Made by a program: the position numbers and the translations under genes. From positions 186,001 to 250,000 of the forward strand of contig JAFVQU010000020.1 of the NCBI GenBank assembly GCA_017504625.1: a stretch of DNA of 64,000 nucleotides, given 5' to 3'. Of the stretch, positions 5,764 through 35,019 are shown one piece after another (within the stretch, counting starts at the first letter, position 1; each line of letters begins with the position of its first letter). Source of the stretch: Clostridia bacterium (lineage in GTDB: Bacteria; Bacillota; Clostridia; Oscillospirales; CAG-272). The notes under the pieces are model-generated. The model ran no database searches. It was not told the origin of the DNA and saw only the letters and a program-made list of their open reading frames with translations.

Positions 5764-6447
5764 ATGAAAAAGCTTATACTGATATTATGCATCGTGGCAT
5801 GCTTGGCAATCGTTGCATGCGCGGGGACAAATCCCGTTGAGCAAACTACTTCCGATCAGACACCTACTACAGAAAATCAGACTCCGACAATCGAGTCTGT
5901 GAACGAATCAAGTGAAGATAGGGATGAACCTACAGATGAATCTACAGAGGAGCCGACGGAGAAGCCCACAGAAGAACCCACAGAGGAGCCGACGGAGGAG
6001 CCGACTGAGGAAATAATTGACCCCACCGCTCCGCAGGTAGTTATTGACTCTACCGCTACTGAGCTTATAGCAGGTCAGGAATTCACCTTTACGGTTGCAA
6101 TAGCGAATAATCCCGGTATATTCTCGTTTACGTTTGATATCCCCATTGATACCGATGTATTTGAGTTTGTAGGCGCGGATACAAGCGAAACTATATGCTC
6201 GACGTTAGGTATTTGCGGATATGATGAAACTACATCCTCGTATAAATTCAACGGATACGGCGAATCACCCTTTGAAAACCTTACCGACGACGGAATAATA
6301 GTTACCGTAACGCTTAAGGTAAAGGATAGCGCGGTAGCAGGAAAATACTCAATCTCGATAAATCCTGATGATAAGAACATAATCAACGTTGATGCTCAAA
6401 AGGTTGCATTTGCGGGCGCAAAGCTTAAGATTGCCGTAACCGAATAA
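5764..6447 (+). CDS. Cohesin-like domain lipoprotein with EPT repeat linker
   Basis: The 227-residue product starts 6 nt after a GGAGG site. It has a lipoprotein signal (AIVAC, Cys19). A low-complexity Thr/Glu/Pro linker follows (tandem TEEPTEEP units, roughly residues 55-85). The C-terminal beta-rich domain of about 140 residues (PQVVIDSTATELIAGQEFTFTVAI, then NNPGIFSFTFDIPIDTDVF) resembles cohesin modules. Cohesins bind dockerins; a dockerin-bearing protein is encoded at 28.9 kb in this window. A role as a membrane-tethered cohesin is inferred. The gene has its own promoter and terminator. The cohesin call rests on pattern, not on a computed profile match. Confidence 0.72.
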   Translation: MKKLILILCIVACLAIVACAGTNPVEQTTSDQTPTTENQTPTIESVNESSEDRDEPTDESTEEPTEKPTEEPTEEPTEEPTEEIIDPTAPQVVIDSTATELIAGQEFTFTVAIANNPGIFSFTFDIPIDTDVFEFVGADTSETICSTLGICGYDETTSSYKFNGYGESPFENLTDDGIIVTVTLKVKDSAVAGKYSISINPDDKNIINVDAQKVAFAGAKLKIAVTE

Positions 6448-24452: not shown

Positions 24453-25391
24453 ATGGCAGCAAAAAGAAAAAAGAGAAAGAATAGCCGATCACCAATTGTA
24501 CTGTTCTTTATAATAATACTTGCAGTTCTGGCTATTCTGTATAACCAGTTTGGCGAAAAGCTCGGACTTCCCGATCTTTTCGGATCTTTTGAACAACAGA
24601 CTACCACTCCTCCTCCCGTTCCCGACGGCGAGGAAGTGTTGATTCACATGATTGACGTTGGTCAGGGCGATGCTATTCTTGTTATGACATCGGACGGAAA
24701 CATGCTGATAGATACCGGTGAAAGCACGGCGAGAGAAGAACTTGTGTCGTATTTTAATTCGGTAAACATCACGAGCTTTGAGTACGTGGTCTTTACGCAT
24801 CCTGATTCAGACCATATTGGAAACGCCGATTATATCGTTCAGAATTATAGTATAAAAAATATCATTATGCCCGACAAGGTATCGACGACCAAGACCTATG
24901 AAAGAATGATCGATGCTATTGAAAACAGTCAGGCTAACGTAATTATGGCAGAGCCAGGATATGAATTTTACCTTGGTGCATTGCAGAATACCATAATAGC
25001 GCCTAATAAGGATTATAAGGATCCTAACGAGGCAAGCGTTGTTATAAAGTCGACCTACGGAGATACGTCTATAATGCTCACGGGTGATGCGGAAAAGGAG
25101 TCAGAGGCTGACATATTGAGTATCTGGAGCAAGGATGCACTTAAGTGTAACGTGCTTAAGGTTGGGCATCACGGTTCAAGCACATCAACCTCTCCCGCGT
25201 TTCTTGATGCGGTTGATCCCACAATTGCACTGATCTCCTGCGGAGAGGGAAATAAGTACGGTCATCCGCTTCCTGAAACCATCAAGAAACTTGAGGACAG
25301 GGGAATAACGATATACCGCACGGACAAAAACGGCTCTATCGTTATCCGCACCGACGGTAAGGAGTTTACTCTAATAAGTACGGAAAAGTAA
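24453..25391 (+). CDS. Anchored metallo-beta-lactamase-fold hydrolase (ComEC C-domain type)
   Basis: The ATG at 24453 is 8 nt after AAAGGAG; an in-frame TTG two codons upstream is too close to that site. The 312-residue product has a basic start, an N-terminal TM helix (about 13-32), a Thr/Pro linker, then an MBL domain. Visible metal-site motifs are DVGQGDA, HPDSDHIGN, GDAEKESE, and VGHHGSSTS with the late YGHP. This matches stand-alone relatives of the ComEC/Rec2 C-terminal domain, which are linked to extracellular DNA or nucleotide hydrolysis. Substrate is unknown. It is the last gene before the accessory island. Confidence 0.85.
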   Translation: MAAKRKKRKNSRSPIVLFFIIILAVLAILYNQFGEKLGLPDLFGSFEQQTTTPPPVPDGEEVLIHMIDVGQGDAILVMTSDGNMLIDTGESTAREELVSYFNSVNITSFEYVVFTHPDSDHIGNADYIVQNYSIKNIIMPDKVSTTKTYERMIDAIENSQANVIMAEPGYEFYLGALQNTIIAPNKDYKDPNEASVVIKSTYGDTSIMLTGDAEKESEADILSIWSKDALKCNVLKVGHHGSSTSTSPAFLDAVDPTIALISCGEGNKYGHPLPETIKKLEDRGITIYRTDKNGSIVIRTDGKEFTLISTEK

Positions 25392-25465
25392 TAAAAAGGA
25401 TGAGGCAATAGAGCGCACTCTAAAGGATATTTTTTGAAAGTATTAAGCGTAAATAATAACAAATT

Positions 25466-25503
25466 AAAAAACACGAGAATCATTTTGATTTTCGTGTTTT
25501 TTT
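25466..25503 (+). terminator. Terminator after the MBL-fold gene
   Basis: AAAACACGA...AATC pairs with GATTTTCGTGTTTT across a short loop, followed by a long T-run. Confidence 0.85.
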
Positions 25504-25571
25504 GTACAACAACTTAAATATTTTTTATCTCGTCGTGTTAAAATAATTAGATAGAAGGAGGATGATAGACT

Positions 25572-26411
25572 ATGAGAAAAATAACAACCGAAATGAAAGA
25601 ATCATTCAATGACTATATGATTAACGAGGAAAAGGCGGTGGCAACCGTCAATAAGTATTTGCACGATGTAGGTGAGTTTCAAATGTGGCTTGGCGAGCAA
25701 GAGATATGTAAAACGGCGGTTCTTGCGTACAAATCATATCTTTGTGAGCATTATGCCCCTGCGAGTGTGAATGCCGCACTCTCATCACTCAATAGCTTTT
25801 TCAATTTTATGGAGTGGTACGATTTGAGAGTGAAGAATCTTAAAATTCAAAAACAGATCTTCGCGTCCACAGACAAAGAATTGACAAAGGCGGAGTATGA
25901 CCGCCTTTTGCAAGCGGCGAAGCAGAAGAAAAATGAGCGATTATATCTCTTGATGCAGACAATCTGTTCTACGGGAATCCGCGTGTCCGAGGTTCGATAC
26001 GTTACTGTCGAGGCGGTGGCGCGCGGTGTTGCTGAAATCAACTGCAAGGGTAAGCGCAGATCGGTATTCCTGCCAAATCAACTTTGTCGGATTTTGAAGC
26101 AGTATATCAAAGAGAAAAAAATAAAAAGCGGTGCCGTGTTCGTAACAAAGAACGGCAATCCGCTTGACAGATCGAATATTTGGAGTGATATGAAAAAGTT
26201 ATGTAAGGCTGCGAACGTGTCGGAGAAAAAGGTGTTTCCGCACAACCTCCGTCATCTTTTCGCGCGCACTTATTATAGCTTGCAAAAGGACATTGTTCGA
26301 CTTGCCGATATCCTCGGGCATAGCAATGTAAACACAACGAGAATTTATACGATGGAAACAGGCGAAATGCACAGAAGACAAATTCAAAAATTAGGGCTTT
26401 TGCGGTGTTAA
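25572..26411 (+). CDS. Tyrosine recombinase, probable DNA invertase of the adjacent switch
   Basis: The 279-residue protein has an N-terminal SAM-like core-binding domain (about residues 5-90) and a C-terminal catalytic domain. The full catalytic set is visible: Arg137 (TGIRVSE), Lys159 (CKGK), His224 and Arg227 (PHNLRH), His250 (LGHSNVNTT) and Tyr259 (RIYT). It is the size of Xer-like phase-variation recombinases and shorter than ICE or phage integrases with arm-binding domains. It starts 7 nt after AGGAGGAT. A dif-like 28-bp site begins 19 bp after its stop, and a second copy lies inverted 220 bp further on, so its probable job is to flip the segment between them. Confidence 0.9.
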   Translation: MRKITTEMKESFNDYMINEEKAVATVNKYLHDVGEFQMWLGEQEICKTAVLAYKSYLCEHYAPASVNAALSSLNSFFNFMEWYDLRVKNLKIQKQIFASTDKELTKAEYDRLLQAAKQKKNERLYLLMQTICSTGIRVSEVRYVTVEAVARGVAEINCKGKRRSVFLPNQLCRILKQYIKEKKIKSGAVFVTKNGNPLDRSNIWSDMKKLCKAANVSEKKVFPHNLRHLFARTYYSLQKDIVRLADILGHSNVNTTRIYTMETGEMHRRQIQKLGLLRC

Positions 26412-26429
26412 AGAGGGTAAAAAAGAAAT

Positions 26430-26457
26430 CTACCACATAATTTGCCTTATGTGGTAG
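26430..26457 (+). repeat. Left recombination site of the invertible segment
   Basis: An 11-bp arm CTACCACATAA, a 6-bp centre TTTGCC, and the perfect complementary arm TTATGTGGTAG form a 28-bp site. This is the arm-spacer-arm layout of Xer/dif-like tyrosine recombinase cores. A near copy lies at 26650-26677 in the opposite orientation. Confidence 0.88.
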
Positions 26458-26478
26458 TTGCAATATTTAACCATTACG

Positions 26479-26507
26479 ATTTTATCATAAAAGTCGTCGA
26501 AAGTCAA
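26479..26507 (-). promoter_or_regulatory. Promoter inside the invertible segment
   Basis: On the minus strand, TTGACT (26502-26507) and TAAAAT (26479-26484) are exactly 17 bp apart. As oriented, it would transcribe across the left recombination site into the antisense strand of the recombinase gene. Confidence 0.82.
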
Positions 26508-26569
26508 TAAGTTTACCGTAAATAATGGCTGTTTTTAATAGAAATTTACATAAATGAGTATAACAAATC

Positions 26570-26600
26570 GACCAATGAAACGACTGTTTTTTCATTGGTC
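26570..26600. repeat. 11-bp hairpin in the invertible segment
   Basis: GACCAATGAAA pairs with TTTCATTGGTC across a 9-nt loop. No T-run follows on either strand, so it is not a clear terminator. It might be a protein site or a structure that insulates the promoter. Confidence 0.55.
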
Positions 26601-26649
26601 TTCTGTAGCGTACATATATGGCGTGCGCCCTTCTTTTTTATTTTCTTTT

Positions 26650-26677
26650 ATACCACATAAGGCAAATTATGTAGTGA
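26650..26677 (-). repeat. Right recombination site of the invertible segment
   Basis: Read on the minus strand this is an inverted copy of the left site: 24 of 26 central bases agree, including the whole run ACATAA-TTTGCC-TTATGTGGTA. The asymmetric centre (TTTGCC on minus, GGCAAA on plus) fixes the opposite orientation, so recombination would invert and not delete. Confidence 0.87.
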
Positions 26678-26709
26678 AAACCTAAGCAATGTTATGGAGG
26701 TAACTTGAC

Positions 26710-28839
26710 ATGAAAAAACAAATTTGCATCAAATTTTTAGCTGTGTTCACACTTGTACTTATGCTAAGTATAACCACTATAATCACAGCGTTTGCTGAAT
26801 CAAGCACTTCGGCATACGTATCTTCTGGTACAGAGGTTTCTCGAGGAGAAGAAATTACTATCTCTGTCGGAATCAGCAATGGATCGGAAATTCAGAGTAT
26901 TTTGATTATACCTGAATATGATAGTGACACTTTTGACTTAGTCGATGGAGGTTGGACTCTTTCCGGCGGACTTATGTCGGATTTCAGTGTTAGCTCCGGT
27001 GACGGCGTTATTTTGTTTAATCCCGGCATAAATGTAGATGGAAAAGTTCTTACCTTTACGCTGATAGCAAAAGATGATGCCGCATTTGACACATATAGTA
27101 TTTCTGCGGAGGTTGTCATCACCGACAGCAACGGCAACACCACGTTAACTACAACTCCTGCTACTGTACAAGTGAAGTGTGACCACAGTTTCACAAAGGA
27201 AGACACTACATATTTGAAGAGTGCCGCTACTTGTACAAATCCCGCAGTTTACTATAAGAGCTGTGTAACTTGCGGTGAAAAAGGTATTGAAACTTTTAAC
27301 TATGGCTCAACGATAGAACACTCATATACAAGAAAAGTAACTACCGATGCCTACAAGGTATCTGGAGCTACTTGTACAGTACAAGCCGTTTACTACTACT
27401 GTTGCGCTACTTGCGATGCCAAAGGCACCACGACCTATGAAGACGAAAAACCGCTTACACACAACTACACAAGAGAAGTAATAACAGATACTTATAAAGT
27501 CTCCGATGCGGATTGCGACAGTAAGGCGGTTTATAATTACTGCTGCGCTACTTGTGATGAGAAGGGCACAACGACTTTTGAACACGGCGAGGTTCTCGGT
27601 CATACAGGCGGAACGGCTACTTGTACTGCAAAGGCTATTTGTACTCGTTGTAGCCAAGAATACGGCGATACTCTTGACCACACATATGATCAAGAGGTAG
27701 TGCAGGATAAATATTTAGCTTCGGCTGCATCTTGTACGGCTAAAGAGAAGTATTATAAGTCTTGCACTTGCGGAGCTAAAGGATCGGTAACTTTCGAGGT
27801 TGGCGACAAGAGGCCTCACGACTATATGGAAAAGGTTGACGCGCTTTATTTGAAGGATGCGGCTACCTGCACGACAAAGGCAGTCTATTATGAAAGCTGT
27901 TCTGTGTGCGGCGAAAAAGGAACTGCTACGTTTGAGACGGGCGATGCACCGAGCCACAGCTACAGAACAAATTGGACTTCTGACTCGACATCGCACTGGC
28001 ATGAATGCTCGAAGTGTGGAGATAAGAAGGATTCTGCTTCACATACTGAAGGTGCGGCGGCAACGGAATATACCGCACAGACCTGTACTGTTTGCGAATA
28101 TGTAATCACTCCTGCTCTTGGTCACACACATCATTATAACACTACTTGGTCAAACGATGCAGATAACCATTGGTATGCTTGCTCAGGCTGTAGTGAGCCG
28201 AAGGACAAGAGCGCACATATCTACAAGAATGCTTGTGATACGGATTGTGACGTTTGCGGATATACAAGAGAAATAACTCACAATTATAATACAGATTGGG
28301 CGAAGGATGCAGAAAAGCACTGGTATGAGTGCACGATTTGTGGCGATAAGAAAAATGAAACGGTACATACTCCAGGCGCGAACGCTACCGAAACCACTGA
28401 TCAGACCTGTACCGTTTGTGGTTATGTGATCAAGGAAGCACTCGGCCATACTCATAACCACAACACGATTAAGAACGATGAAACGAACCACTGGAATGAG
28501 TGTGCTTGCGGAGATAAGACGGACGTAGCGGCTCATACTTGGGATGACGGCGTTGTTACTAAAGAAGCAACCTATGACGAAGAAGGCGAAAAGACCTTTA
28601 CTTGCTCAACTTGTTCTAAGACAAAGATTGAAAGTGTCGAAAAGCTGGTTCGAGATGACGAGACAAATACAGATACTGAAGGCAGCGCGGATGTACCTGC
28701 TGACACAGATAAGGACACTGATGCAACCGAACAGCCTTCCGATGGATGCCGTTCTGCAATTGGAATCGAAGCCGGTTCAATTGTGGTAATTGCTATGATT
28801 TGCGGTGCAGTTGTCTTTGTGAAAAAGAAGAAAGCATAA
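26710..28839 (+). CDS. Membrane-anchored surface protein: cohesin-like domain plus Cys/His repeats
   Basis: The start is 9 nt after GGAGG. The 709-residue product has a Sec signal (cleavage after AFA, about 29) and a cohesin-like beta domain at about 33-155 (SSGTEVSRGEEITISVGI, then KVLTFTLIAKDDAAFDTYSI). About ten Cys-rich repeats follow; the early ones follow a Y-K/L-x-x-A-x-C ... Y-x-C-C/S-x-x-C-G-x-K-G-T-x-T-F pattern, the later ones HWYEC-x-x-C-G-x-K. The end is an acidic Thr/Asp linker, then GCRSAIGIEAG, a TM helix and a KKKK tail. It should be cell-bound with its cohesin-like domain outermost. It is the first gene downstream of the invertible promoter. Confidence 0.8.
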   Translation: MKKQICIKFLAVFTLVLMLSITTIITAFAESSTSAYVSSGTEVSRGEEITISVGISNGSEIQSILIIPEYDSDTFDLVDGGWTLSGGLMSDFSVSSGDGVILFNPGINVDGKVLTFTLIAKDDAAFDTYSISAEVVITDSNGNTTLTTTPATVQVKCDHSFTKEDTTYLKSAATCTNPAVYYKSCVTCGEKGIETFNYGSTIEHSYTRKVTTDAYKVSGATCTVQAVYYYCCATCDAKGTTTYEDEKPLTHNYTREVITDTYKVSDADCDSKAVYNYCCATCDEKGTTTFEHGEVLGHTGGTATCTAKAICTRCSQEYGDTLDHTYDQEVVQDKYLASAASCTAKEKYYKSCTCGAKGSVTFEVGDKRPHDYMEKVDALYLKDAATCTTKAVYYESCSVCGEKGTATFETGDAPSHSYRTNWTSDSTSHWHECSKCGDKKDSASHTEGAAATEYTAQTCTVCEYVITPALGHTHHYNTTWSNDADNHWYACSGCSEPKDKSAHIYKNACDTDCDVCGYTREITHNYNTDWAKDAEKHWYECTICGDKKNETVHTPGANATETTDQTCTVCGYVIKEALGHTHNHNTIKNDETNHWNECACGDKTDVAAHTWDDGVVTKEATYDEEGEKTFTCSTCSKTKIESVEKLVRDDETNTDTEGSADVPADTDKDTDATEQPSDGCRSAIGIEAGSIVVIAMICGAVVFVKKKKA

Positions 28840-28864
28840 TAGCAATTAATCATAGACAAACTTC

Positions 28865-28894
28865 AAATGCAAGTGCTCTTAAGCACTTGCATTT
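28865..28894 (+). terminator. 13-bp hairpin between the two surface genes
   Basis: AAATGCAAGTGCT pairs perfectly around a CTTA loop. The T-run after it is weak (ATTTGTT), so partial termination or mRNA protection, giving different levels of the two proteins, is more likely than a full stop. Confidence 0.6.
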
Positions 28895-28916
28895 GTTACA
28901 ACGAGAGGAGAAGCCA

Positions 28917-31900
28917 ATGAAAAGAAAATTTAAACTGTTGTTTCTGGGCGTGATAGCAGTATTCATGCTATCATTGCTTTGCATCTCTGCTTCTGCTACA
29001 AGCAGCAATGCAGTTCTTGGGGATATGAATGGCGATTCTGTTGTAAATATCGACGATGCTATATATCTTTTAAAGCATACAATGATGCCATCGAGATACC
29101 CCGTATCTCAGCCCGCGGACGTTAACGGAACGGGCGACGTTAATATCGACGATGCCATATATCTTTTGAAACATACGATGATGCCGTCGAGATATCCGAT
29201 TATTGATCCGACTTTTTGTTCGCATAAATTCATGCAGCAAAACACAGAACCTGTATACCTAAAGTCTATAGCTTCATGCAAATCGCCTGCGGTATACTAT
29301 CATTCCTGTATTTGTGGTGAAGTGGGAGAAACCACTTTCGCTGTTGGTGATACTCTAAACCATGATTTTGGAAACTGGATTGTAATAGAGGAAGCAACCT
29401 CTGACAAAAACGGACTTAAAGAACGCGTATGCCAAAACTGTAATGTAATCGAACAAATTAAGCTTTTGAGATGTCCGACCTGTTATGGAAAAGGGTATGA
29501 AAGCTTTTACCCCGGATGCTGTACTTCCGGTCGTGTTCAAGCAACGTGTTACAGATGTGCAGGATCGGGAAAAATCAATGATCCAATAGTGTGTTATATT
29601 TGTGACGGAGTCGGCTCTTATGTTGATGGTTTAGGCACGACACGAAAATGTAGCTGCGATGGCGGACGTGTGTATCCCCAATGTTATAATTGTAACGGTA
29701 CAGGTTATACACTGGTTACATGCCCATCCTGTAAAGGAAATCCATCACAAAAAAATTGTGATGAATGTAATGGTCAAGGATATTATGACTATATTTTGCT
29801 CAAATATAATCTTAATGGAGGGGATGGGGTTGTTGAAGACTCTGTGTTTTGTGGAGATTATTGTGTCATAACCGATACAATACCAACAAAGAGTGGATAT
29901 GTTTTTCTTGGATGGAAAGATATTAAGACCGGTGCTTTATATAAAGCAGGCCAAAGTTATTCCGATGATGCACTTGAATTATATGCCGCGTGGTTGCCTA
30001 TTTGTTCCACGTGTGAAGGGGAAGGAGGAAGCTACACCGAATCAGTTTGCACTAAATGTGATGGAAATTATATATCTACGTCTACAACAAAAAAATGTAA
30101 TTCGTGCGGAGGCAGCTATATTGTTGGAAGCACCACAGGTTGGGGCACAACTTATTATTGTAAGACATGCTCATCGCATGATGTGTCAATAACAACTAAT
30201 ACATATACATGTTCTTGTGGCGATGGTAAGGTGGTAACAAAAACGCCATGCTCATATTGTAGCGGAAATGGCTATATAGGCGATGTTTCAGATTGTGAAA
30301 TTGATGTATCCAAACACATTCATAATTATCAATTTCATGAACAAAAAGTTGTAACATGGTCTGAGATTGGCTGGAATGAATATTACACATGCGATGGATG
30401 TGGTTTTTCAGGATATGTAGAAATACCTGCTATTGGAGCTGTTTTAGTAGAGAAGAATCTTTCAGATGCAGGAAGTGTTGAAATATCCATTAATCCGGAT
30501 AATTCTATTACGCTGAAAGCAATTAGCAATAAAGGATATACTTTTCTTGGCTTTTATAAAGGCGACAATCTTGTAGTATCTACCGATGTTTATACATTTA
30601 CTCCTCACAAATATAATAAGGAAATTGCTGCAAAGTGGCAAATTAATAACTATTCTGTTTCTATTACACAAAACATTGTTGAAGGTGGCAGTGTTAGCAA
30701 AAGTGGAAACTATGACTTTGGAACCTCGGTAACCGTAACGGCGACTACCAATACAGGATATACATTCCTTGGATGGTATGAGGAAGATACTAAAGTTTAT
30801 TCGGAACATGAATACACTTTTTCTATAACAAAAGATGTAGTACTGACTGCTAAATGGTTGAAGAATTACAATGTCGTTTTGCAACAAAATATTTCTAATG
30901 CAGGTAGGGTTGCAGGCGATGGTAATTTTGTTTCCAATAGTTCTGTGACGGTAATTGCAAGAACAAATATGGGTTATACCTTTGTTGGATGGTATGAAAA
31001 TGGCTTCCCGATTTCGTTTGATGAAACCTATACATTTGAAATTTCAAATGATAGAACTCTTATTGCAATATGGGAATTAAAGGAAGAGTACGCGGCTCTC
31101 TCAGACTTTGAATTTCGATTAACCGAATATTCGTGTGAAATAACCGGTGTTATAGATAAAACTAAAACGGAGTATATAATCCCAAATTACGTAACGAGTA
31201 TTGGATCTTCTGCGTTCTATGGTTGCACGAGTCTTACAAACATCACGATACCGAACAGCGTGACGAGAATCGAATGGGATGCGTTCTCCGGCTGTAGCGG
31301 ACTTACGAGTGTAACGATACCCAACAGCGTGACGAGCATCGGCTCTTCTGCGTTCTCCGGCTGTAGTGGACTTACAAGTATTACGATATCGAACAGCGTG
31401 ACGAGCATCGGCTCTTCTGCGTTTGAGGGCTGTAGCGGACTTACGAGTGTAACGATACCCAACAGCGTGACGAGCATCGGCTCTTATGCGTTCTACAACT
31501 GTAGCGGACTTACGAGTGTAACGATACCCAACAGCGTGACGAGCATCGGCTCTTCTGCGTTTGAGGGCTGTAGCGGACTTACGAGTGTAACGATACCCAA
31601 CAGCGTAACGAGCATCGGCTCTTATGCGTTCTACAACTGTAGCGGACTTACAAGTGTAACGATACCCAACAGCGTGACGAGCATCGGCTCTTATGCGTTT
31701 GAGGGCTGTAGCGGACTTACAAGTGTAACGATACCCGATAGTGTAACGAGCATCGGCTCTTCTGCGTTCTCCGGCTGTAGCGGACTTACAAGTATTACGA
31801 TATCGAACAGTGTGACGAGCATCGGCGAGTATGCGTTCTACAACTGTAGCGGACTTACAAGCGTAGCGATACCGAACAGCGTGACGAAAATCGGCTTAAG

Positions 31901-33221
31901 GGCGTTCTCCGGCTGTAGCGGACTTACAAGCGTAATGATACCGAACAGCGTGACGAGCATCGGCGAGTCTGCGTTCTACGGCTGTAGCGGACTTACAAGT
32001 ATTACGATATCGAACAGTGTGACGAGCATCGGCGAGTATGCGTTCTACAACTGTAGCGGACTTACAAGTGTAACGATACCCAACAGCGTGACGAAAATCG
32101 ACTTAAGGGCGTTCTATGGTTGCACGAGTCTTACAAACATCACGATACCAAACAGCGTGACGAGCATCGGCTCTCATGCGTTTGAGGGCTGCAGCGGACT
32201 TACGAGCGTAACGATACCCAACAGCGTGACGAAAATCGGCTCTTATGCGTTCTTCGGCTGTAGCGGACTTACAAGCGTAACGATACCGAACAGCGTGACG
32301 AAAATCGGCTCTTATGCGTTTGAGGACTGCAGCGGACTTACGAGCGTAACGATACCCAACAGCGTGACGAGCATCGAAAGCGGTGCGTTCTATATGTGTA
32401 ATAAGCTCGTAGAGATTATCAATCACTCAAGACTCTCACTTTCCCTAGGTTCCACTTCTAACGGTGACGTCGCATATTATGCCAAAGAGATCCATCAAGG
32501 AAGCAGCAAGATCGTTAATCAAAATGATTACCTCTTCTATACCTATGGGGGTACGAATTATCTGCTGGGATACATTGGCAATGATACATCATTAACTTTG
32601 CCACAGAATTATAACGGTAAGTCGTACGAGATATATAAATATGCGTTCTACAAATGTAGCGGACTTACAAGTATTACGATACCGAATAGCGTGACGAGCA
32701 TCGGCGAGTATGCGTTCTCGGGCTGTAGTGGACTTACGAGTGTAACGATACCCGATAGTGTAACGAGCATCAGCAAGTATGCGTTCTACGACTGTAGTGG
32801 ACTTACAAGCGTAATGATACCAAATAGCGTGACGAGCATCGAATGGGATGCGTTCTCCGGCTGTAGCGGACTTACGAGTGTAACGATACCCAACAGCGTG
32901 ACGAGCATAGGCAGTGGTGCGTTCAGTGGTTGCACAAGTCTTACAAGCATTACAATACCCAACAGCGTGACGAGCATCGGCCAAGTGGCGTTCTATAGAT
33001 GTAGCGGACTTACGAGCGTAACGATACCGAACAGCATCACGAGCATCGGCAAGTATGCGTTTGAGGACTGCAGCGAACTTGCGAGAATCACCTTTCAGGG
33101 AACCGTGTCGCAATGGAAAGCGATTTCGACGGAGTCTGATTGGAATTTCAACACAGGAAGTTACACCATTTACTGCACCGATGGCACCATATCAAAAATC
33201 GGATCGGTAACTTACAACTAA
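28917..33221 (+). CDS. Giant secreted protein: dockerin, Cys-rich repeats, InlB repeats and 25 BspA-type LRRs
   Basis: I choose the ATG at 28917, after AGAGGAG; the longer frame has no ribosome site. The 1434-residue product has a Sec signal (to about 27). A type I dockerin pair at 34-95 has two calcium loops, DMNGDSVVNIDD and DVNGTGDVNIDD, each followed by AIYLLKHT. Then come CxxCxGxG knots like the DnaJ zinc centre (about 180-460) and InlB/Listeria-Bacteroides type repeats (GYTFLGWYE, about 490-730). There are 18 and then 7 leucine-rich repeats of 23 residues (SGLTSVTIPNSVTSIG), split by a non-repeat insert near 1165-1215. There is no TM helix, LPxTG or cell-wall domain at the end, so attachment through the dockerin to a cohesin is likely. 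BspA-type LRRs often mediate adhesion. Confidence 0.85.
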   Translation: MKRKFKLLFLGVIAVFMLSLLCISASATSSNAVLGDMNGDSVVNIDDAIYLLKHTMMPSRYPVSQPADVNGTGDVNIDDAIYLLKHTMMPSRYPIIDPTFCSHKFMQQNTEPVYLKSIASCKSPAVYYHSCICGEVGETTFAVGDTLNHDFGNWIVIEEATSDKNGLKERVCQNCNVIEQIKLLRCPTCYGKGYESFYPGCCTSGRVQATCYRCAGSGKINDPIVCYICDGVGSYVDGLGTTRKCSCDGGRVYPQCYNCNGTGYTLVTCPSCKGNPSQKNCDECNGQGYYDYILLKYNLNGGDGVVEDSVFCGDYCVITDTIPTKSGYVFLGWKDIKTGALYKAGQSYSDDALELYAAWLPICSTCEGEGGSYTESVCTKCDGNYISTSTTKKCNSCGGSYIVGSTTGWGTTYYCKTCSSHDVSITTNTYTCSCGDGKVVTKTPCSYCSGNGYIGDVSDCEIDVSKHIHNYQFHEQKVVTWSEIGWNEYYTCDGCGFSGYVEIPAIGAVLVEKNLSDAGSVEISINPDNSITLKAISNKGYTFLGFYKGDNLVVSTDVYTFTPHKYNKEIAAKWQINNYSVSITQNIVEGGSVSKSGNYDFGTSVTVTATTNTGYTFLGWYEEDTKVYSEHEYTFSITKDVVLTAKWLKNYNVVLQQNISNAGRVAGDGNFVSNSSVTVIARTNMGYTFVGWYENGFPISFDETYTFEISNDRTLIAIWELKEEYAALSDFEFRLTEYSCEITGVIDKTKTEYIIPNYVTSIGSSAFYGCTSLTNITIPNSVTRIEWDAFSGCSGLTSVTIPNSVTSIGSSAFSGCSGLTSITISNSVTSIGSSAFEGCSGLTSVTIPNSVTSIGSYAFYNCSGLTSVTIPNSVTSIGSSAFEGCSGLTSVTIPNSVTSIGSYAFYNCSGLTSVTIPNSVTSIGSYAFEGCSGLTSVTIPDSVTSIGSSAFSGCSGLTSITISNSVTSIGEYAFYNCSGLTSVAIPNSVTKIGLRAFSGCSGLTSVMIPNSVTSIGESAFYGCSGLTSITISNSVTSIGEYAFYNCSGLTSVTIPNSVTKIDLRAFYGCTSLTNITIPNSVTSIGSHAFEGCSGLTSVTIPNSVTKIGSYAFFGCSGLTSVTIPNSVTKIGSYAFEDCSGLTSVTIPNSVTSIESGAFYMCNKLVEIINHSRLSLSLGSTSNGDVAYYAKEIHQGSSKIVNQNDYLFYTYGGTNYLLGYIGNDTSLTLPQNYNGKSYEIYKYAFYKCSGLTSITIPNSVTSIGEYAFSGCSGLTSVTIPDSVTSISKYAFYDCSGLTSVMIPNSVTSIEWDAFSGCSGLTSVTIPNSVTSIGSGAFSGCTSLTSITIPNSVTSIGQVAFYRCSGLTSVTIPNSITSIGKYAFEDCSELARITFQGTVSQWKAISTESDWNFNTGSYTIYCTDGTISKIGSVTYN
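31190..33110 (+). repeat. 69-bp coding tandem repeats (LRR array)
   Basis: Twenty-five 69-bp units, many almost identical at DNA level, run in two blocks (about 31190-32400 and 32640-33110). The consensus core is ACGATACCCAACAGCGTGAC. They encode the LRRs of the giant protein and are prone to unequal recombination. Confidence 0.9.
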
Positions 33222-33372
33222 TATCTCAATCGATACAAAGTATTTCAAGGAAACGAGTTACGCTTTATTATTGGTGAAAACAAAATAAGAAAGGCACGGG
33301 CGATATTTTCCCGCCCGTTGGAAAAACGTATGAAAAAGCTTATATTTTTATCCGGTCAGGCAAGTTGTGCAT

Positions 33373-33474
33373 ATGGCTCAAACTCTGTTTGATATGATAA
33401 TGGATGCTATAAATCTAATAAAGAAATCACAACAAGCTTGCAATCAAAAATCAAGTACACAAAGCCAAAACTAA
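33373..33474 (+). CDS. Possible 33-residue open frame, perhaps a gene remnant
   Basis: The frame starts MAQTLFDMIMDAINLIKKSQQ and is amphipathic and helical in pattern. There is no good ribosome site before the ATG. It could be a decayed end of an older mobile gene or chance. I do not recognise it. Confidence 0.2.
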   Translation: MAQTLFDMIMDAINLIKKSQQACNQKSSTQSQN

Positions 33475-33503
33475 AGTTTAGAAATATAGCACAAACACTG
33501 AAA

Positions 33504-33551
33504 CCACCATCTCAACGTGTGAACCGCGCTGAGATGGTGGACTTGTTTTTT
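33504..33551 (+). terminator. Terminator of the accessory surface operon
   Basis: CCACCATCTCA pairs perfectly with TGAGATGGTGG and is followed by ACTTGTTTTTT. Confidence 0.82.
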
Positions 33552-33603
33552 ATATTATGCTATATCCATTTTATCTGACGAGCACTGCATTCTGTACAGA
33601 AAT

Positions 33604-33643
33604 ACAAAAAATACGGCATACCTCTTTCGAGATATACCGTATT
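33604..33643 (-). terminator. Terminator of clpX
   Basis: On the minus strand, AATACGGTATATCTC pairs with GAGGTATGCCGTATT around a 4-nt loop (one mismatch), followed by six T. Confidence 0.85.
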
Positions 33644-33693
33644 CTTGCAAATTGTCATTTAGGGTACGTCCCTAATGATTCGTCTTTTTTAAT

Positions 33694-35019
33694 TTATTTT
33701 TCAATAAGGTTAGCTGCACCCTTCTTAAGAACAAGGCGCGGCTTTGTCTTTTTTGTTACGCATTCCTTCGTAATAATGACCTTTTCAACATCATTTCGGG
33801 AAGGAATTTCGTACATGATATTGGTCATAAAGCCCTCGATTATAGAGCGCAATCCTCTCGCACCCGTTTTTCTTTCGGTCGCAAGCTCTGCAATTGCTTC
33901 AAGCGCTCCCTCTGAGAAGGAAAGAGTAACTCCGTCGATTTCAAAGAGCTTGATATACTGCTTCGTAACGGCATTCTTAGGCTCACACAAAATGCGTACA
34001 AGAGCATCGTTTGTAAGCTCAGTAAGAGATACCATAACGGGTAGACGTCCGACAAGCTCGGGGATAAGTCCGAACTTTACTATATCGTGAGCTGTAACGT
34101 CGGAGAACATACCGTTTCCGCCGTCGCTTATAGCAGAGGTTTTGTCATGCTCACTGCTAAAGCCGATAACTCTGTTGCCCTTACGCTTTTCAATGATCTT
34201 TTCAAGACCGTCGAACGCACCGCCGCAGATAAAGAGAATATTTTCGGTGTTTATCTTAATGAATTCCTGATTGGGATGCTTACGTCCGCCCTGAGGAGGA
34301 ACGTTTGCAACCGTGCCTTCAAGGATTTTTAAGAGTGCTTGCTGAACACCCTCGCCCGATACGTCGCGGGTGATAGAGCGGTTTTCACTCTTTCTTGAAA
34401 TTTTATCTATCTCGTCGATGTAGATGATTCCGCGCTCTGCAAGCTCTACGTCGTAGTCAGCCGCCTGAATAAGGCGAAGGAGAATGTTCTCAACGTCCTC
34501 TCCGACATATCCTGCCTCTGTCAAGGTTGTCGCGTCTGCAATTGCAAAGGGAACGTGGAGAGTTTTAGCGAGAGTCTGAGCAAGATAGGTCTTGCCTACG
34601 CCCGTAGGGCCGAGAAGAAGAACGTTACTTTTTTGAATATCGATACCGTCGTCAGAAGCCTTCTTTTGATTTCTGTTTCTTCTTGTTCCGATATCCTTTG
34701 AGAGTATTCTCTTGTAATGATTGTAAACAGCCACGGACAAGGCGATTTTTGCTTCATCCTGACCGATGACGTACTCATCAAGAGATTTCTTGATGTCAAT
34801 AGGCTTGGGAAGAGTATCAAAGGAAAGAGAACTATCACTTTGAGCTCTCATATCCATTTCTGCGTCATAAATAAGCTCTGAGCATGATTCAACGCAAAAA
34901 TCACAGATATAAGCGCCCGATTGAGAGGGGATAAGGAAGTTTACCTGTTCCTCATTTCTACCGCAAAACGAGCAAAATCTCGAATTATTACCGTGAGTGT
35001 GCTTGTTGTTAGATGACAT
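33694..35019 (-). CDS. clpX: ATP-dependent Clp protease ATP-binding subunit ClpX
   Basis: The 441-residue AAA+ unfoldase has an N-terminal zinc-binding domain (CSFC near residue 16 and CDFC near 38), Walker A GPTGVGKT near 139, Walker [11 protein letters not shown] near 198, the ClpP-binding IGF loop (RVIGFSS near 284) and sensor 2 GARGLR near 398. It unfolds substrates and feeds them to ClpP. It is 20 bp downstream of clpP. Confidence 0.97.

Follow-up and report, generated by a model that had tools for sequence, protein, structure and literature searches.

A predicted invertible promoter switch beside a tyrosine recombinase faces away from a cohesin-like surface operon in a Clostridia bacterium

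A tyrosine recombinase gene, a pair of inverted repeats and an operon for surface proteins lie in a row in the genome of a Clostridia bacterium, which raises the question of whether the repeats bound a promoter that is turned round to switch the operon. The window analyzed here is a 64,000-nucleotide stretch of a 1.96-Mb genome assembly (97% complete, 30 contigs). The left site (26430–26457) reads CTACCACATAA-TTTGCC-TTATGTGGTAG, with its centre TTTGCC at 26441–26446, and the right site (26650–26677) is inverted, with the centre GGCAAA at 26661–26666. The two 28-bp sites are separated by 192 bp (220 bp from centre to centre), and a gap of 18 bp divides the recombinase stop codon from the left site. 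After inversion, 24 of the 26 central positions are equal by our own count (96% identity over 25 nt). The initial annotation had described two 28-bp inverted sites with a 6-bp centre and this degree of match, and its coordinates and counts were reproduced from the sequence. The segment between the sites (26458–26649) is flanked by inverted repeats with identical centres, as invertons are, and it aligns in inverted orientation with the corresponding segment of a relative (L037). No further site was found in the 1.96-Mb assembly by searches for whole sites with up to 3 mismatches and for arms with up to 1 mismatch. The background rate is 6 sites with at most 4 arm mismatches, away from recombinases, in 744,531 bp of loci. 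The inverted site pair is more than chance.

The recombinase gene (25572–26411, plus strand) encodes a 279-residue protein with SAM-like core-binding and catalytic domains. Its match to Phage_integrase (PF00589; E 3e-30, 105.6 bits against a cut-off of 27.1) identifies it as a tyrosine recombinase, and PF02899 is also over its cut-off; the gene is intact, as had been claimed for a complete recombinase gene upstream of the sites. Residues R137, K159, K161, H224, R227, H250 and Y259 are invariant in the recombinase alignment (22 homologue rows), and the R-K-H-R-H-Y residues presumably have the catalytic roles. No NCBIfam model reached its cut-off for this protein, and the equivalog cut-offs of the dif recombinases were missed (XerD, 130.9 versus 329.6; XerC, 115.8 versus 335.15). 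The nearest relatives are encoded by MAGs of uncultured Clostridia and Oscillospiraceae, many of them from ruminant or deer gut according to their titles. A defence role of the locus was considered and dropped, since PADLOC returned no match. Comparisons across the family used 60 loci from species-representative genomes and 20 from the window's own and related genomes; 3 of these 20 were left out as duplicates, and a distant homologue (L096) was left out of the site counts, which gave 76 loci. A separate search that scored whole-site matches gave the set of 62 loci used below for promoters, orientations and spacing.

The segment contains a predicted promoter on the minus strand (TTGACT, 17 bp, TAAAAT; 26507–26479), located by a motif scan and by the matching position in relatives, that points toward the recombinase in what we call the OFF layout. 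It scores 20.0 versus 15.5 for the best plus-strand candidate within the segment. Dinucleotide-shuffled segments of all 62 loci provided the null distribution (mean 16.5, 95th percentile 18.4), and the best promoter exceeded the 95th percentile of the shuffles in 57 of the 62. Inversion in silico moves the promoter to 26600–26628, where it faces right with 81 nt from the −10 box to the ATG at 26710, and a GGAGG ribosome-binding site is present by our own reading at 26696–26700 on the plus strand. The promoter inside the segment thus faces the gene in one orientation only, which by sequence is a property of invertons. The initial annotation had placed a promoter here on the minus strand, directed away from the surface gene, had seen no comparable promoter on the plus strand at present, had predicted that inversion would aim the promoter at the 26710 gene, and had called the window captured OFF. 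All four statements agree with these scores and positions and with the assembled layout, in which the promoter points at the recombinase.

The sites and the segment also contain terminator-like hairpins. On the minus strand, the left site and the U-tract outside it (26420–26457; an 11-bp stem, then ATTTCTTTTT) resemble an intrinsic terminator for the OFF transcript. The left-site hairpin folds at −17.7 kcal/mol (z −3.9), and the left site is listed by a terminator scan that returned 11 such sites in 8.5 kb against 6.7 expected. An outside U-tract follows the left site (minus strand) in 35 of 61 loci and the right site (plus strand) in 6 of 61, a contrast to which the purine-rich ribosome-binding stretch past the right site may contribute (L078 was dropped because it lacks the flank). 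Ordinary gene ends have a U-tract in 93 of 368 cases, versus the 35 of 61 at the left site (p 1e-6). Since the U-tract lies outside the left site and seldom outside the right, the site should end the OFF transcript and let the ON transcript through. Alignment, the scan and folding (z −2.9 and −3.8) point to a central hairpin (GACCAATGAAA...TTTCATTGGTC; 26570–26600) that looks like a two-way terminator and is conserved in the window and seven close relatives; its own U-tracts are short in the window. Once five ambiguous loci were set aside, 57 segments remained, of which 41 contain terminator-like hairpins when read in the OFF direction and 46 when read in the ON direction, versus 25% of 285 composition-only shuffles that were scanned in one direction. 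A weak terminator-like hairpin with a T-run (26608–26645, plus strand; −7.6 kcal/mol, z −1.5) is directed toward the surface gene in the OFF layout, and its counterpart is better formed in L040 and L041.

The OFF-facing promoter could also have a role of its own in antisense control of the recombinase, given that it points into the 3′ end of that gene in most loci and that a strong U-tract beyond the left site is missing in 26 of 61. We regard this as unlikely: in the window, as in 35 of 61 loci, the left-site hairpin and U-tract separate the promoter from the gene, so the RNA should end first.

Opposite orientations of the segment were found between relatives and between paralogues of one MAG. 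The L037 segment aligns with those of L040, L041 and L039 at 0.80–0.82 inverted and 0.58–0.62 direct, and the window segment aligns with that of L037 at 0.72 inverted and 0.60 direct, with a BLASTN minus-strand match to 26429–26675 (69%). Two paralogues in the same MAG, L068 and L093, align at 0.88 inverted and 0.56 direct. L037 and L097, a contig from a viral collection, have a recombinase gene (70% DNA identity) and a 2.7-kb cargo cluster from the right site on (76%) in common, and their switches lie in opposite orientations (alignment score 59 inverted, 20 direct). Orientation calls with a margin of 1.0 classified the 62 loci as 9 ON, 49 OFF and 4 ambiguous, and strong promoters alone gave 9 ON and 48 OFF; L078 counts as a doubtful ON, its promoter being 203 nt away from the near site. 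Mapped on a recombinase tree of 60 rows, the 9 ON labels require 8 changes of state, no fewer than 7 of which starred branches force, and they cluster no more than shuffled labels do (189 of 500 shuffles as low). The scatter of ON rows over the tree indicates that the state changes repeatedly. Contig breaks were also considered as a sign of mixed orientations; they were dropped as uninformative because contigs end within 400 bp on the upstream side of the recombinase about as often as on the downstream side (6 versus 8).

The preponderance of OFF calls among strong promoters, together with a greater divergence of the outer than of the inner arms between the two sites, could reflect a switch that was formerly active and is now locked OFF in the window, for example by the C/T mismatch in the right outer arm. 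A locked switch is improbable here, however, because the recombinase is intact, the centres are identical and the same kind of arm mismatch occurs in many loci, including ON ones such as L068.

The distribution of sites was compared with that of the recombinase in 146 family genomes, using E of at most 1e-40 to define recombinase carriers and at most 1 mismatch to define a site. There are 48 carriers and 18 genomes with a site; a backwards control pattern was found in 2 genomes. Sites occur in 17 of the 48 carriers versus 1 of the 98 non-carriers (p 9e-9), and the lone non-carrier has a single site without a partner. This contradicts the outcome that the initial annotation had said would count against a switch, namely that related genomes keep the sites while the recombinase is absent. 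Of the carriers, 31 have no site at this stringency, partly owing to the many related sites with different arms. In an order-wide draw, sites of a wider pattern were found in 53 of 394 genomes, against 4 for the control, and among the matches listed, a homologous recombinase (E 1e-25) adjoins 9 of 13 new pairs and is absent beside the other 4. The link of inversion to the recombinase is thus one of genomic association, and the recombinase, the sites and the predicted promoter are found together time and again in gut Clostridia. The switch might instead be flipped in trans by a different recombinase of the genome, with the adjacent gene merely travelling along: the genome has three more genes with a Phage_integrase domain, C. 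difficile RecV acts on several switches according to the accessible text of PMC5903667, and in some relatives no recombinase adjoins the site pair. This is very unlikely, since sites are nearly confined to carriers of the adjacent type of recombinase, where they lie just behind it, and since the searches above found no further sites in the window genome.

The centres of the sites were compared after defining sites by their arms alone, ignoring the centre, within 700 bp of the recombinase stop. At least two sites were found in 59 of the 76 loci, and in 59 of 59 the outermost two have the same 6-bp centre in inverted register, never direct and never different. The 54 loci with exactly two sites have 0 centre mismatches in 324 positions versus 63 arm mismatches in 972, and shuffling the centres among these loci gave a mean of 2.1 matches and a maximum of 8. 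The centres nevertheless vary between loci, with 43 different ones among the 62 loci of the separate search. Identity between left and right sites falls to near chance 1–2 bases beyond a 24-bp core. The order-wide draw added at least 13 new inverted pairs among the matches listed, with identical centres in 13 of 13, and the centres are identical in all 18 held-out pairs. Centres that are matched within loci and varied between them indicate that the centre is renewed in both sites together. Such paired renewal would fit a strand exchange that needs, and maybe enforces, identical centres; always-matched, fast-changing centres would thus mark the strand-exchange region without biochemistry. The arms rule finds fewer than two sites in the remaining 17 of the 76 loci. 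A contig end lies inside the recombinase or at most 28 bp from it in four of them (L047, L049, L071 and L087), a matched pair with more divergent arms is present in three (L018, L020 and L090), and the others, such as L015, L019, L021, L056, L086 and L095, show neither of these circumstances.

That the inverted sites are mere hairpin terminators around an ordinary promoter, with the recombinase an unrelated neighbour, is scarcely credible, because, although the left site does resemble an intrinsic terminator on the minus strand, a terminator needs no identical 6-bp loop 220 bp away, yet every locus with two sites has one and the loop sequence differs among loci, the segment is inverted in relatives, and the identity of the sites ends with their core. 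The matched centres, the opposite orientations in relatives, the scattered ON rows and the tracking of the recombinase by the sites bear out the invertible promoter switch of the initial annotation. As judged from these genome sequences, the window locus is very probably such a switch in its OFF layout.

Several loci depart from the two-site arrangement. A third site is present in L010, L013, L064, L069 and L075, and all three centres are equal in each, so two alternative segments could flip in these five loci; in genome G415 the extra, middle site has a different centre. The cassettes L058, L065, L068 and L093 of one MAG (SIG626, SVQV01) have the centre TTTTCA in common (1 ON, 3 OFF), which makes recombination between cassettes and larger inversions possible. 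Mismatches in 53 two-site loci number 13 in the inner arms and 48 in the outer arms. Contig C11:1–87 of G300 has two same-centre sites in direct orientation, 63 bp apart, at the contig start, and direct same-centre sites likewise lie beside the left site of L013.

The distances between the sites are helically phased. Centre-to-centre distances in the 62 loci range from 189 to 353 bp, and a free scan found a period of 10.50 bp (R 0.60, p 3e-10) with a phase near whole turns; the 220 bp of the window correspond to 20.95 turns. About 50 of the 62 loci fall within 2 bp of this phase and about 12 are more than 2 bp off. A shared ancestry of the loci was considered as the source of the phasing, and three analyses oppose it. 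Taking one locus per recombinase cluster retained the signal at 90% (n = 48, p 3e-7), 80% (n = 41, p 1e-5) and 70% identity (n = 30, p 8e-4), and clustering at 60% left 8 clusters, too few to judge (p 0.1). Among the periods tried, 10.5 bp best fits the length differences between sister loci (35 disjoint nearest-relative pairs, including nine viral-contig loci; 34 with unequal lengths; p 5e-5, or 3e-4 without differences below 4 bp). The 18 held-out pairs recovered the phase that had been fixed beforehand (p 6e-4), with the free scan of these pairs alone peaking at 10.25 bp, not 10.50. Six of the 11 family pairs (from G071, G121, G108, G141 and two from G101) had been dropped from the held-out set because their centre and distance match discovery loci; the 11 family pairs alone peak at 13.5. 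Ten family distances set beside the discovery loci contain duplicates of this kind as well and carry no weight here. The order-wide pairs were taken among the matches listed, with G460 and G216 among those incomplete; the outer two of the three G415 sites were paired, and the direct G300 pair was not counted. With the phase fixed beforehand, the nine viral-contig loci gave p 2e-3.

The promoter is also phased with respect to the near site. Distances from the −10 box to the near site cluster at 13–14, 22–26, 32–36, 43–46 and 55 nt, and distances of 17, 107, 111 and 203 nt occur once each. The test of this phasing used the discovery set only and was restricted to the 55 of 62 loci whose strong promoter lies under 60 nt away from the near site; it gave R 0.79 and p 1e-15, and p 1e-9 for 34 cluster representatives. 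The site-to-site phasing is what a stiff loop of 200–300 bp would demand. The promoter phasing came as a surprise and suggests that the promoter and the recombinase occupy a fixed face of the DNA, through either contact or loop geometry. The joining of two sites about 220 bp apart involves a loop near the stiffness limit of DNA and has mostly been studied in vitro. Evolution seems to have repeated this short-loop spacing experiment, with dozens of loci near whole turns and the promoter phased too. Within the accessible portions of the open-access literature, nothing on point was found for helical phasing in DNA inversion or Cre looping, and the word "helical" is absent from PMC7096588.

The first gene of the switched operon (26710–28839, plus strand) encodes a 709-residue surface protein that, by our own reading, has a signal peptide, CxxC repeats and a C-terminal hydrophobic anchor. 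Its cohesin-like domain is assigned by Pfam (PF00963, cut-off 24.1 bits), with 25.0 bits for the fragment, 24.7 with its neighbours and 20.5, below the cut-off, for the whole protein. The second gene (28917–33221, plus strand) encodes a 1434-residue surface protein with a signal peptide (own reading), InlB-type repeats, BspA leucine-rich repeats (LRR_5, E 5e-217) and a pair of repeats that we term dockerin-like, because their 18.2 and 20.0 bits stay below the Dockerin_1 cut-off (PF00404, 22.9); two repeats with a D-x-N-x-D-like pattern are visible in the protein by our own reading. A strong hairpin between the two genes (28864–28895) may set the ratio of their products. Further cohesins and dockerins are encoded elsewhere in the window genome, which has three cohesin-encoding frames. 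One is a second cohesin of the window (5764–6447, plus strand), a small gene that looks lipoprotein-like (own reading), with a proline/threonine/glutamate-rich linker and 35.4 bits, over the cut-off; its product could pair with the dockerin-like repeats encoded in the switched operon.

The cargo of the family was sampled from the first downstream proteins of the window and 44 other loci, picked mechanically and cut to 700 residues; loci with short contigs, without a plus-strand gene or from the related-genome set were left out. Matches at E 1e-3 among the 45 proteins were to Cohesin (9), Flg_new (9) and LRR_5 (8). Six of the nine Cohesin matches are over the Pfam cut-off, those of the window, L044 and L070 are below it, and two of the nine are paralogues in one MAG. 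A crude signal-peptide rule classified 29 of 44 first downstream proteins as exported. In six operons selected because their first gene encodes a cohesin, the genes further downstream were scanned, and additional cohesins or dockerins were found in L044, L048, L062, L070 and L084; the two later genes of L066 that were scanned had none. Cargo elsewhere is unlike this and includes TetR regulators, an ABC transporter, an SPFH protein and a serine recombinase. The pairing of such a switch with a surface operon had been called unusual, and this does not stand, as cohesin or leucine-rich-repeat surface genes are frequent cargo of the family. The literature searched for phase variation with cohesin and dockerin, as far as its texts were accessible, yielded nothing beyond a review on surface colonization.

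These results can be assembled into a mechanism for the window locus. The recombinase most likely binds the two downstream sites of 24–28 bp, which would be brought together across a loop of about 21 turns so that strands are exchanged within the 6-bp centre and the promoter segment is inverted. In the OFF state the promoter would drive a short RNA in the direction of the recombinase, most likely terminated at the left-site hairpin, and the surface operon would stay OFF. The inverted promoter of the ON state would face right, and its leader would cross the right site, which has no U-tract in the window, into a transcript covering first the cohesin gene and next the dockerin-LRR gene. Read-through from the recombinase gene is probably blocked by the central hairpin in both states. 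The sites, the predicted promoter, the matched centres, both orientations among relatives and the helical spacing are read from the genomes compared here. We infer catalysis by the adjacent recombinase, termination, expression and cohesin-dockerin binding. We are highly confident, on the strength of its gene and site arrangement, that the window locus is a self-contained phase-variation cassette. On balance, we favour a wider reading in which the family would consist of flipping promoters with one recombinase for one target and with three features: the sites lie whole helical turns apart; the promoter is held in a fixed phase with the near site, placing promoter and recombinase on a constant face of the DNA, where polymerase and synapse may interact; and the centre, fast-changing between loci but always renewed in both sites, serves as a private address. 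Such cassettes would repeatedly govern cohesin-dockerin surface proteins and make these assemblies phase-variable. The cohesin-dockerin link suggests that cellulosome-like surface assemblies of gut Clostridia may be ON in part of a population, and reading one MAG as one state would miss such switching.

Invertible promoters with tyrosine recombinases are established. The fimS element of E. coli is an invertible promoter that is turned by the tyrosine recombinases FimB and FimE and controls a surface structure, and it uses two recombinases versus one in the window. The window recombinase differs from this type, falling short of the FimB/FimE-type cut-offs (PRK09870, 35.1 versus 221 bits; PRK09871, 23.8 versus 222 bits). 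The window locus is like fimS, which is mentioned in the accessible text of PMC2784873, in combining an invertible promoter, a tyrosine recombinase and a surface structure. The C. difficile cwpV switch has 21-bp repeats 195 bp apart, the recombinase RecV and a surface protein, and an intrinsic terminator was proposed for its OFF transcript (PMC2784873, accessible part). It resembles the window in its short inverted segment, its surface protein and the terminator in the OFF transcript; in contrast, its promoter lies outside the segment and termination alone decides the outcome, as that part of the paper describes it. RecV also serves several loci in the available text of PMC5903667, whereas each cassette of the window family has its own recombinase and centre. 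In the C. difficile flagellar switch, inversion by RecV controls an operon, as in the window, but OFF is reached through Rho after initiation, whereas the promoter of the window itself turns round (PMC7446863, accessible text). Inversion signatures in other Clostridia, such as the one in Anaerotignum propionicum beside a chemotaxis gene (PMC5903667), are by their description in the available text similarly small invertible segments, whose cargo is not confined to surface proteins. For human-gut Clostridia, Jin et al. (2025; PMC11892184) defined inverton group 139 with invertase group 35; it comprises 33 invertons, 32 of them from Clostridia, and a tyrosine-type recombinase lies near almost every one, as stated in the accessible part of that paper, where inversion was detected from reads. 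These groups are possibly the same family as the window cassette. That part of the paper mentions possible terminator-like motifs only in general, and it contains no description of private centres, of a helical spacing or of cohesin cargo. The switch is thus ordinary in principle, and what is new within the literature searched is the helical phasing, the private centres, the insulation and the cohesin cargo.

The cassette occupies a variable slot (25391–33694) between a metallo-beta-lactamase gene and clpX. Homology of the window with the L037, L038 and L042 cassettes begins 57 nt before the recombinase, and that with L042 extends to the right site (25515–26680). The flanking genes of the window (pyk, the metallo-beta-lactamase gene, clpX and clpP) were found in none of L037–L112 by tblastn at E 1e-10 within flanks of up to 10 kb, many of them cut short, and an orthologous position of the locus in these relatives was dropped because no flanking genes matched. 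This slot was examined in 11 further genomes of the genus. Two of them, L113 and L114, have the metallo-beta-lactamase gene and clpX almost side by side, and L115–L119 have other genes in the slot, without sites, that are fucose-isomerase-like, AraC-like and glycosylase-like by our own reading; four genomes say nothing about the slot, as one of the two genes is absent or they fall on separate contigs. The near-empty or otherwise filled slot in congeners indicates that the recombinase, the switch and the surface operon occupy a variable slot. An intergenic stretch beside clpX (33565–33701) has 78–84% identity with L039 and L041; because these two loci lack the window's neighbouring genes, it is read as a shared intergenic repeat, perhaps a dispersed one. 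Relatives of the recombinase with 45–71% identity are also encoded by 16 viral-classed contigs of IMG/VR, and the cassette may ride on mobile elements. A matched site pair lies behind the recombinase in 10 of the 16 (L097–L103, L106, L110 and L111), and ParB-like or methylase-like genes (own reading) are found near some of these viral-contig cassettes.
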